A DNA stretch of 64,000 nucleotides, from contig JBANAY010000003.1 of assembly GCA_037952775.1 (NCBI GenBank), positions 1,302,001-1,366,000 of the forward strand. The letters are read 5' to 3'. The notes under the pieces were generated by a model. The model saw only the letters and a program-made list of their open reading frames with translations. It ran no database searches and was not told the DNA's origin. The position numbers were made by a program, and so were the translations under genes. Below, one piece after another: positions 55,522 to 58,371 of the stretch (positions are counted from its first letter, which is position 1; the number at the start of each line of letters is the position of its first letter). This DNA is from Clonostachys chloroleuca (taxonomy: Eukaryota; Ascomycota; Sordariomycetes; Hypocreales; Bionectriaceae).

Positions 55522-58371
55522 CTAAAATAGAGTCTTGAGGATCTTTTCCAACTTGTAGAAGTCGTCTCCAATTTGAGACTTCACAGACTCTTCAGCCTTA
55601 TCCACCAACATCTCCCAAGACTCTTTATCACCAGGGTAAGACCTCTTCAAGAAGGCGACGGCACAGACCGTGGCTAATATGTCCTCCTTTCTCGCGTGCT
55701 TGAGCACAAAGGCGGGAAGTTCCATACTGAGGACTCTCTCAGCAGTGATCCCAAGAACTTTCTCGAGGCTGGAGCCCCACAGCCAAGTGCCGCTGAACGT
55801 CTGGAGAGAAATGAGTGCCTGGAGCTTGTTGGAGGGGTCAATGGTGGCAGTCCTTTTGGTTCTTTTTCTGGCAGGTGATTCCAGTCCATCAGAAGTCACC
55901 CTTTTCTCCGGGCTGCCTGTCTCGCTATCTGCTTGCTCCCCATCATCTTCCATCGGCTCTGAGAAAGTTGCAATCCTTCTATGTCTTAGCGCCCCTCCAA
56001 CACCCACTCCCTTACCTCTTTGTACTGTAGGAACTGGCGTTGTGGACGGGGCAGACTTTCTTGCGGTCTTGTTTGCAAGCTGCTTACGAGGACGCTTCAC
56101 TGGGACCGGGGTAACCGAAGGGGCGGACTTCCTGGCAGCCTTTGACGCAAGTTGCTTCCGAGGAGCCGCACCCCAGGTTGAAACCGTAGCTTTAGCAACA
56201 CCCATGGGTGGCGAACCAGAAGGTTTGGCAGACTGATTTCTCTGAGGTTGCTTCCCTTTGCCATCGGCTTCCTCATTCGCCAACCCTTCGACGGCGACAA
56301 AGGAGCACCATTTACCGCTGACCTGAAATTGTAGTCCAAGCCTGACAGCTTCTCGCTGAAGCATGTCGGGGAATCGACCATCTAGCTTGTTCTTGAGCAG
56401 CTCTCCGTCGCTGTCTTTGGCCTTGGTAAGCCAGCCACGATCCTCCTCTAGCTCTTTGATCTCTTTGCGGGCGGCAAGCTGATGGATGGTTGTGGACTCC
56501 CGAGTCAGATTCACAACCGGGATCTCCAATGTGAGATTCGCCTGTGGGCTTGTTCCGGTTAAAAACACAGACTTTATTCTCCTCTGCGGCGTTGATTCTG
56601 AAAGCAGGATGTAGACATTTGTTCTAGAGAATGGGTATAAGGGGGGGATCTCAGTCGGGGTTTGGAGGTAGCGAGGAGTGTCAATCTGAGGAAGATGCTG
56701 ATACTTGTCGATGATATTGTCCCCACTGGCTTCCACGGCGTGATCGCCTTTATCAAAGTTTGAATCAAACAGGGGCACATTGTCGCGGGACTCCGTGGGC
56801 CACGCCACAGGGCTGCTTGGCTCACTCGTGTCAATGTGTAGCGAGTCTAGCACATACTCGATCACTTCGAACCCCTCATCCTCATCATCAAGCTGCATGT
56901 GATCCTTCTCACTCTCATACTTGATTTCGAGAGAGTAATCGCTCGCATGGGGCAGGAGAGCACCCTTGAGCATTCGCATCAGCTTCTTATCCATTTTCTC
57001 GCCGTCTTGGATATACTGTGCGAACCCATTCCCTGCGCGGACAACGCCTTCGATCAAGGAACTGCTGGCTCCAGATCCGATCCCAAGGCTGAAAACCCGA
57101 GTTTTCCCATTCTTCTCGGTGACTTGGGTCTTGATGAGCTTGAACAGACGGTCTTGATCCCATATGTCTCCATCTGTAAGCAGGAACACCTCCAGATTCA
57201 TATCTTTATACTGACGCTGAAAAGCGGACTCCATCGGAGCGTATATTTCGGTGCCTCCATAGTCAGCACTGAACGTGTTGATATGGTCTGTGGCTTCATT
57301 AAGAGAGTCTTGATTGTATGTCTTGGATCTTGGCCAGAGAAAAGAATACGTTGAGCCAAAGCTGGCTATGTTGAATTTAACGCCAACAGGCAAGGACTTG
57401 AGGAAAATGTGAAGGGCATTAACAAGATCTTGGATTTTCCCGGTCATGCTTCCACTGCGGTCGCATATGAAGACCACCTCTGGCTTCTCTGAGGACAGCC
57501 TGAATTTGGGCACAAGTGAAACCATGAGAGCACGTTGGCCGGGAATGGTTGGGTGCGTCTCCAAGAATGCACTAGGCTCGCCTAGTTTAGTGGCCGCCAC
57601 CTCAATGATGAAGTCCTTATCTAAAGCAGAGACATCTCGAGTCAAGGTGGCAGATGCCTTGGAGAGAGAGGGTTCAGAAATGCCTTCCAGCTCCGTTGAT
57701 AGCTTGCCGATGTTGATCGAGATGGGATGAGAGGGTGATTGGAGAGACTTGATAGTGGATCCCTCGGGCATTTCGGTGTCAACAGTGATAGACATCCCTT
57801 TCTCCTTAACCAAAGAGCCCTTGAGAATGGAGTTCCCATATCGTGGCACTACACGAGTGGGGATATTAAGACGAACACCGTCTATTTCGGCATCGTGCTT
57901 GAGCTCTCCAATGTAGGTAATGACGACAGTCACTGCCCCGCCTGCAGGTACGTTGCCGACGGAGGTGAAGAAGACATCCGCTGCCTCAAGGGATTGCTCG
58001 AATAGACCGGCTGTTTTCCCAAGAGACTTGGCTTCTTCATATATCTGTTTGGCCTTTTGCCGTTCTTTGACGACGCCTGTAATGGTGCGATCCCCAACAA
58101 TGCAAGAGACCGCGGTCACAGAGACGCCATCGAAAAGGGGGAAAATATATTTAACTTCTTCAATTGGGACATCCTGAGAAGGGTTGATGAAGGTTTGTGT
58201 AAGAGTTGTATGGAAGATGGTGTCAAGGATGGTTGCGTGAATATCAACCATGACGTGGGGAAGGTACATAGGCTTATGATCAACGAGAATGTAACAACCA
58301 CATAGGGGGGTCCAAGCCCGCGAGGCCACCATGGCCGTTGAGGCACGGGCTGTTTGCTTGGTGCGTGCCAT
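55522..58371 (-). CDS. VIT/von Willebrand A domain protein with histone H3 tail mimics (949 aa)
   Basis: Single minus-strand exon. Residues 2-9 are ARTKQTAR, identical to histone H3 1-8. A VIT domain follows (about 20-185: [52 protein letters not shown]). The VWA domain (about 285-470) has an intact MIDAS: DRSGSM (Asp 304, Ser 306, Ser 308), Thr 374 in GGTEI and Asp 400 in LTDGD. The later region contains [17 protein letters not shown] at 736-752, identical to fungal H3 15-31, and [16 protein letters not shown] at 761-776. A basic cluster ARKRTKR suggests nuclear entry. The C-terminal ~110 residues ([49 protein letters not shown]) resemble the end of PARP4/VWA5-type proteins. The role is unknown; binding of H3-tail readers or modifiers is inference. 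Confidence 0.9.
   Translation of the reverse strand: [949 protein letters not shown]

Follow-up and report, generated by a model that had tools for sequence, protein, structure and literature searches.

Copies of the histone H3 tail in fungal VIT/VWA proteins: possible bait for H3-tail-recognizing chromatin enzymes

Introduction

Histone mimics known to us are mostly viral, or their likeness to a histone extends over few residues. SNAG-type mimics, such as SNAIL1 and GFI1, dock on LSD1 by means of a free N terminus that resembles the K4 end of histone H3 and matches it loosely. Short mimics of the ARKS/ARTK type (G9a/GLP, influenza NS1, and SARS-CoV-2 ORF8) comprise a few residues and are mostly viral or self-methylated. 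NS1 has been named among the H3-like mimics (PMC5663869), and EZHIP is described as a histone mimic that inhibits Polycomb repressive complex 2 (PRC2), where Met or Ile at the lysine position is reported to inhibit and Lys, Arg, and Glu are reported not to (PMC6513997). Here we analyze a protein of Clonostachys chloroleuca with a VIT and a VWA domain, encoded at positions 55522 to 58371 of a 64,000-nucleotide stretch of contig JBANAY010000003.1 (positions 1,302,001 to 1,366,000; referred to below as the window), which carries three copies of the H3 tail. We report that such copies are conserved in relatives from several ascomycete classes and in a second, unrelated protein family, and that their lysines are the residues most often replaced.

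Results

The gene is read from the minus strand without interruption, from the ATG at 58371 to the stop codon ending at 55522, and its start codon is the first ATG downstream of an in-frame stop (context AACAATGG). Its features, all on the minus strand and given in window positions, are the following.

55522..58371, minus strand: VIT/VWA protein gene, a single open frame of 949 amino acids (Pfam VIT, 1.6e-35; VWA_3, 3.1e-26)
58345..58368, minus strand: N-terminal copy of H3 1-8, residues 2-9, ARTKQTAR, with Ala at the K9 position (translation; predicted local distance difference test score [pLDDT] of about 30)
56116..56166, minus strand: internal copy 1, residues 736-752, matching H3 15-31 of the same genome at 17/17 residues (translation against the genome's own H3 gene)
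56044..56091, minus strand: internal copy 2, residues 761-776, H3 16-31 with S22N and A24T in H3 numbering (translation)
57913..58248, minus strand: VIT domain, residues 42-153 (Pfam PF08487)
57016..57480, minus strand: VWA domain, residues 298-452 (Pfam PF13768)
55852..56268, minus strand: predicted disordered linker, residues 702-840, with both internal copies inside (AlphaFold pLDDT below 50)
55534..55827, minus strand: C-terminal helical domain, residues 849-946 (pLDDT of about 90; conserved in the family)
55852..55872, minus strand: basic stretch ARKRTKR, residues 834-840 (read from the translation)

A sequence-only reading of this stretch had proposed the three H3-like segments, including the Ala at K9 and two changes in the last segment, as well as the VIT/VWA label; translation, comparison with the H3 of the same genome, and the Pfam scan bear out all of these, and add the strand, which had not been given. 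Its judgment that the likeness is beyond chance also holds: the best ungapped H3-tail score of the linker is 93, whereas 400 shuffles of this linker gave no score above 50, and the N terminus matches H3 at 8 of 9 positions, versus at most 4 of 9 at any offset from 3 to 60 in 240 VIT proteins. The scan alignment of copy 1 reaches over H3 7-31, but its H3 7-14 part is weak; a clearer STGG precedes the internal segment in the orthologues P0004 and P0006. All three copies lie within predicted disorder, since residues 1-22 and 702-840 are unfolded in the AlphaFold model. An N-terminal Met is normally removed before Ala, and the mature protein would then begin with ART like H3. At the sequence level, the protein is an H3 mimic in the general sense, with H3-tail sequence (17/17 and 8/8 residues) and no H3 body in its Pfam scan.

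The suggestion that exons had been gained from an H3 gene fared differently as far as a recent event is concerned. Copy 1 and the genome's own H3 gene share 17/17 amino acids but only 6/17 codons, with 5.8 expected from the codon usage of this gene; the remaining 11 codons differ synonymously, and serine 28 is written in the other codon family (TCC versus AGT). For the N-terminal copy, 8/8 amino acids and 3/8 codons are shared (2.55 expected). Furthermore, an intron interrupts the copied stretch in the H3 gene, after the first base of codon 25, and the copy has none. Since the synonymous sites are as different as expected by chance and protein identity is kept, the likeness has been lost in the DNA and maintained in the protein. 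For this genome, the chance-level codon counts and the H3 intron led us to reject both a recent capture of H3 exons and gene conversion from H3.

To compile related proteins, we used a whole-protein search (best 120 of 1884 matches), a search with a Trichoderma tail as query (best 120 of 182), and a profile search (best 120 of 1780) seeded with carriers from outside the Hypocreales whose seed rows contained the tail. Of the resulting 240 VIT-family proteins, which include six relatives from the same genome that lack the tail, 63 carry it at a score of at least 60 (maximum of 42 in a null with one shuffle per C-terminal part). These carriers were first listed by the whole-protein search (14, including the query and an identical copy), the tail search (15), and the profile search (34), and their share of 63/240 comes from a non-random sample and is no population estimate. 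Clustering at 90% identity gave 122 representatives, 43 of them with the tail; four clusters that were mixed for the tail were scored as carriers. P0151, a VWA protein with a tail, was dropped from the tree set by a filter on score and length.

The sequence-only reading had proposed to ask whether the segments hold in orthologs while their flanks drift, and the outcome excludes unconstrained drift. In gapless, tail-anchored alignments of the 43 nonredundant VIT carriers, pairwise identity is 0.706 over H3 14-31, 0.42 over H3 5-13, and 21% over H3 1-4, versus a background level of 0.07 to 0.08 in flanks of 60 residues each. All five Clonostachys orthologues compared have the internal segment; in one of them (P0005), a deletion has joined the two internal copies into one intact copy. 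The N-terminal copy is found in P0001, P0005, and P0006 and is absent from the gene models P0003 and P0004. An H3-like start (at least 6 of 9 positions) occurs in 8 of the 122 representatives, all 8 of which also have the internal tail (Fisher p of 1.5e-4); these N-terminal copies all retain K4, and only that of the Cylindrodendrum protein retains K9. Our confidence in selected H3 mimicry in this family is high.

Within the tail, the lysines stand apart from their surroundings. Among the 43 VIT carriers, (i) L20 is unchanged, R17 and P16 are kept at 0.98, and Q19, A21, and S22 at 0.95; (ii) the lysines are kept at 0.37 (K4), 0.24 (K9), 0.56 (K14), 0.74 (K18), 0.74 (K23), and 0.73 (K27); and (iii) K14, K18, K23, and K27 (0.56 to 0.74) compare with a mean of 0.905 for the non-lysine positions over H3 10-31. 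For the 27 carriers scoring at least 100, S10, G13, R17, L20, and S22 are kept at 1.0, R8 at 0.96, and P16 and Q19 within 0.96 to 1.0, versus 0.35 for K4, 0.33 for K9, 0.74 for K14, 0.81 for K18, 0.74 for K23, and 0.78 for K27. The contrast persists in the 35 carriers that were not first found by the tail search (0.64 versus 0.88). The sequence-only reading had stressed that equivalents of K4, K18, K23, K27, and S28 are present; this is correct for the window protein, which keeps all five in context and has Ala at K9 (N-terminal copy) and at K14 (copy 1), but the stress on lysines fails for the family, where no other residues of the core are kept so poorly.

As binomial p values ignore relatedness, we preferred a test based on events reconstructed on a tree. 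Changes per tip amount to 0.38 for Lys, 0.27 for Thr (mostly T6), 0.15 for Gln, 0.14 for Ala, 0.10 for Ser, 0.09 for Arg, 0.08 for Gly, 0.05 for Pro, and 0 for Leu, and there are 18 events from Lys to Arg and 3 from Arg to Lys. Lys is replaced by Met in 16 of 81 events, versus 8 of 292 (2.7%) when the VIT/VWA domain of these proteins is counted (Fisher p of 1e-6), and Glu, which accounts for 10% of the background events, appears in one event in the tail. Met is also the most common lysine replacement in the 27 best-aligned carriers (14/58). Replacements at K9 are mainly aliphatic or Ala, those at K18 are Arg or Met only, and those at K27 are mainly Arg (Arg 8 and Met 1 in the VIT carriers).

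A second carrier family consists of reverse-transcriptase-like proteins, one of which is encoded by the same genome (L012, with 30/34 H3-tail residues and 21 synonymous differences from H3). A further frame of this genome (L016) would encode a protein with an H3-like N terminus, which has no Pfam match.

1375-2913 and 2-1483, minus strand (own genome, C1:5175136-5175240): L012, H3-tail copy between a helical N-terminal part and an R2/LINE-like reverse transcriptase fold
481-1743, minus strand (own genome, C3:26888571-26888642): L016 frame, which would start MVRTKQVARKSTGGRAPRKQL / MVRTKQVARKSTGGRAPRKQLRSKSK, with an N-terminal H3-like tail

In P0158 the tail lies in the predicted disordered residues 400-490, between an N-terminal helical part and a domain whose fold is closest to the R2 and LINE-1 enzymes; the proteins of this family that were scanned gave no Pfam match. 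Named members include Cudoniella (Leotiomycetes), and the tail copy seen in L012 is retained by relatives in other ascomycetes. We compared 21 rows, hand-picked by a shared N terminus and tail position (P0152 and P0166 are partial; excluded were P0167, which nearly duplicates P0166, and P0156, a carrier whose N terminus differs); all were found via the tail and hence give no absence rate. Every non-lysine column from 5 to 31 is kept at 0.9 to 1.0, and T3 is loose (0.48). The lysines range from 0.48 to 1.0, with K18 at 0.48, K23 at 0.71, and K27 at 0.76 and with K14 (1.0) and K9 (0.86) kept, compared with 0.989 for non-lysine positions over H3 10-31. The recurrence of the same lysine pattern in two unrelated families is the best sign of a common partner that reads the tail.

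All of the covered lysines K9, K14, K18, K23, and K27 are retained in 3 of the 43 VIT carriers and 3 of the 21 reverse-transcriptase-like carriers. Met or Ile occupies one of these positions in 19/43 and 7/21 carriers, respectively, so that EZHIP-like replacement is present in both families, with Met at K27 in 1/41 and 1/21. The window protein has neither Met nor Ile at these lysines and is not EZHIP-like in this respect.

Removal of the rows with an H3 body (score above 150) from the tail search left 51 of the 114 newly listed proteins, among which P0165 resembles a truncated H3 and P0173 is a synthetic reporter. N-terminal H3 tails were also seen on three ubiquitin ligases by Pfam, namely, P0169 (VWA and RING), P0187 (VWA and U-box), and P0150 (HECT and SPRY); their origin is unplaced, and they could be gene-model fusions. 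P0172, P0204, and P0179 are long proteins with H3-tail stretches, and the SET domain found in P0172 and P0204 would suit a built-in pseudo-substrate.

The distribution of the tail among fungi is patchy. Among the 120 listed matches of the whole-protein search, P0002 is identical to the query, the four other closest Clonostachys orthologues have exact H3 matches of 12 to 27 residues, six Trichoderma-type proteins carry H3 5-31 or 15-31 letter for letter, and the Fusarium proteins show no exact H3 match of more than 5 residues. P0083 has a diverged tail (score of 65), and a Cylindrodendrum protein combines the start MARTKQTLRK with tandem copies of a 12-residue H3 segment. Further carriers are from Xylaria (Sordariomycetes), Lophiotrema and Vermiconidia (Dothideomycetes), a Mollisiaceae fungus (Leotiomycetes), and Candelina (Candelariomycetes). 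More than one copy per protein was observed in Clonostachys, Cylindrodendrum, Xylaria, and Clohesyomyces, and the Clohesyomyces copy spans H3 2-31 with K4R. The tail is found in 43 of the 121 tree rows. On a quick tree built without the linker and without bootstrap, this trait requires at least 19 changes, 14 of which are forced by well-supported branches.

A single origin was rejected as the simple reading; with at least 19 changes, the tree does not separate one old gain followed by many losses from repeated gains. We favor an old tail with many losses because of its common position in the linker and because remnant-like matches (score of at least 40) occur in 7 of 73 tail-less linkers, versus 0.4 expected from plain shuffles, a control that does not keep the local order of repetitive linkers; the tail may also have been gained repeatedly. 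In Alternaria-type VIT proteins (P0240, P0242, P0243, P0245, P0246, P0256, and P0273) we noted shortened remnants with RRQLASKA followed by PS-GG, which apparently decayed via a small deletion; their relatives P0244 and P0267 have the 12-residue segment intact.

The succession of a VIT and a VWA domain, both over the Pfam curated cut-offs, places the window protein in the VIT/VWA family (PARP4, VWA5A, and ITIH), and its Pfam scan lists families of this class only. D304, S306, and S308 of the VWA domain are invariant in a 66-row alignment. PARP4 is the best match among solved sequences (E value of 6e-29) and ITIH1 the best fold match (E value of 6e-28); no PARP family appears in the Pfam scan, which separates the protein from PARP4 proper. 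The nearest named proteins are the Clonostachys orthologues, with identities of 86 to 93% (among the best 120 of 1884 matches). The host genome (59.4 Mb in four contigs) contains five VIT/VWA paralogues with identities of 53 to 60% (C3:8225933, C4:12457256, C3:13850493, C1:5464693, and C3:2040442), none of them with an H3 tail, and a scan of six VIT relatives from this genome found no tail. Two of the five paralogue matches run over an in-frame TGA, so that introns or broken copies are possible. The stretch ARKRTKR is a possible nuclear localization signal. The adjoining gene is convergent with the VIT/VWA gene at a distance of 243 bases.

53743..55278, plus strand: F-box protein gene, 511 amino acids (Pfam F-box, 4.2e-05)

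Discussion

We put at slightly less than even (a probability of about 0.47) the reading that the H3 copies act as bait, that is, as decoys or pseudo-substrates, for the fungus's own chromatin enzymes that recognize the H3 tail. The combination of nearly fixed flanking residues with freely replaced lysines is what is expected of a bait or pseudo-substrate. The partner would grip the tail by the neighbors of its lysines (GG-x-AP-R-x-QLAS-x-AAR-x-SAP), and selection would not act on whether the lysines are successfully modified. In the window protein, K4-type binders would find the K4 end in the N-terminal copy, and the K18/K23/K27 region would be displayed by both linker copies, so that the folded VIT/VWA platform would carry a multivalent bait; the bound enzyme might be titrated, inhibited, or brought to another client. 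Judged by domain content, the genome encodes writers for K4 (N-SET and SET), K9 (Pre-SET and SET), and K27 (Ezh2_MCSS_fung, CXC, and SET). The idea of the sequence-only reading that the protein may recruit or titrate H3-tail writers or readers survives and appears strengthened by the ascomycete-wide conservation and the replaced lysines.

Judged by the EZHIP rule, the family pattern at K9 would suit the trapping of a K9 methyltransferase, the pattern at K27 would not suit inhibition of PRC2, and the window protein, without Met, would be a bait or a substrate and not a trap. A simple K27M/PRC2 reading was rejected as a general rule, as Met is rare and Arg usual at K27 and aliphatic residues dominate at K9. 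We consider it rather unlikely that ascomycetes have evolved natural oncohistone-like decoys, with Met, Ile, or Arg in place of lysines in long H3-tail copies on VIT/VWA proteins and on a domesticated reverse transcriptase, which would restrain H3 methyltransferases, above all those of the K9 type, or keep them away from chromatin.

A number of observations weigh against the bait reading. (i) Looseness in the 43 VIT carriers extends to certain non-lysine positions (T6 at 0.42, Q5 and A7 at 0.69), and weak matches may overrun into unrelated letters at H3 4-14. (ii) The usual replacement at K27 is Arg, which does not inhibit PRC2 according to the EZHIP work (PMC6513997). (iii) Orthologs without the segments, named by the sequence-only reading as grounds for refutation, do exist in part: the N-terminal copy is missing from two of the four other Clonostachys gene models, six VIT relatives in the same genome have no tail, and 78 of the 121 tree rows have no internal tail, which makes it dispensable in many lineages. 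(iv) The pairing of N-terminal and internal copies is not strict, since the cluster member P0305 (7/9 at the N terminus) has a decayed internal match (score of 46) and P0283 (5/9, below the threshold) has no internal tail. (v) The codon comparison covers the window's genome only and no other species. (vi) A purely cytosolic protein would meet cytosolic H3-tail binders only. (vii) The window protein, with K4, K18, K23, and K27 kept and no change from Lys to Met, could equally be a modified substrate.

This last point leads to the strongest rival for the window's own protein, in which K18, K23, and K27 are intact: a genuine substrate and scaffold, in which H3 writers would methylate or acetylate those lysines that are still present and the marks would then recruit readers such as HP1-type chromodomains. 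The lysine context and S28 are kept in this protein, K18, K23, and K27 are still lysine in 73 to 74% of the VIT carriers, and the writers are encoded in the genome; we nevertheless consider it unlikely, as no residue is replaced more often than lysine across the family and just three carriers in each family retain all of the covered lysines.

Another alternative is a lure for turnover, in which the VIT/VWA platform would work with a ubiquitin ligase and the bait would bring H3-tail enzymes for degradation or control. F-box genes are common in fungi, and this F-box neighborhood is known from one genome; a link between the two adjoining proteins is suggested only by analogy; the ligases with N-terminal H3 tails would fit this alternative, but they could be fusions as mentioned above. 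In Dictyostelium, the VIT/vWFA protein Vwa1 was recovered with the F-box protein FbxwD (PMC10539598). On balance, we regard such a lure as rather improbable.

We give still less weight to the two following alternatives. The H3 tail is an import signal for Kap123/importin-4 (PMC5677370), and basic disordered segments would suit import; as described in that work, Kap123 needs K14 and K23 and does not read residues 15-22 specifically (PMC5677370). The family shows the reverse, with K14 kept at 0.56 and K23 at 0.74 but P16, R17, Q19, L20, A21, and S22 at 0.95 to 1.0, and copy 1 has Ala at K14; we therefore rejected a histone-type import signal, which is hard to reconcile with the 43 carriers. The copies might instead lure effectors or proteases with which competitors or parasites attack the fungal H3 tail; this would agree with the patchy distribution on the tree and the conserved L20-A21-S22. 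We know of no such attacker of these fungi, and the Pfam scan shows VIT and VWA domains only, which makes this option similarly improbable.

Least probable of all is a functionless captured piece of H3, which would fit the exact 17-residue match and the frequent absence in relatives but is refuted for this genome, because synonymous sites are saturated with amino acids unchanged, the segment holds while its flanks drift to background, and the likely eroded remnants in 7 of 73 tail-less linkers illustrate how the segment fares once constraint is lost.

If the bait reading is true, the control of H3 marks in these fungi would include a built-in layer so far overlooked by annotation, in which the VIT/VWA carriers appear as "hypothetical," "VIT domain-containing," or "Vault poly." The natural variation of the copies separates recognition of the tail from modification of its lysines and offers ready-made peptides with which to assay whether given H3-tail enzymes accept Met, Ile, and Arg or become trapped by them. 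Among the papers listed, we found no report of H3 tails in VIT/VWA proteins or in fungal reverse-transcriptase-like proteins; as few subscription journals were covered, this is weak evidence of novelty. Likewise, the literature searched contained no report of an H3 tail in PARP4, VWA5A, or ITIH, whose sequences were not scanned.

Compared with known systems, the window protein shares its VIT and VWA domains with PARP4, VWA5A, and ITIH and differs in that it has no PARP catalytic domain. BAZ2B is similar in that a disordered interdomain linker resembles H3 and competes for an H3 reader, but its likeness stems from a clustering of basic residues, and its target is the PHD of BAZ2B itself (PMC5663869), whereas no H3 reader domain was detected in the Pfam scan of the window protein. 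Unlike the loose matches of SNAG-type mimics, the ARTKQTAR start reproduces H3 exactly and comes together with an internal H3 segment, and unlike the ARKS/ARTK-type mimics, the fungal copies are 17 to 30 residues long and cellular. The closest parallel is EZHIP/CATACOMB, an inhibitor of PRC2 in placental mammals, which is likewise a non-histone protein with an H3-like peptide in disorder and a nonmodifiable residue in place of a lysine (PMC6513997 and PMC12713659). In EZHIP, the copied part comprises about 12 residues around K27, with Met, whereas some VIT carriers copy 27 to 30; the copies sit in unrelated proteins, Met is most common at K9 and K18 and rare at K27, and the window protein itself has none. 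Taken together, two unrelated cellular families from several ascomycete classes retain H3-tail copies that reach about 30 residues and in which the lysines are freely replaced.

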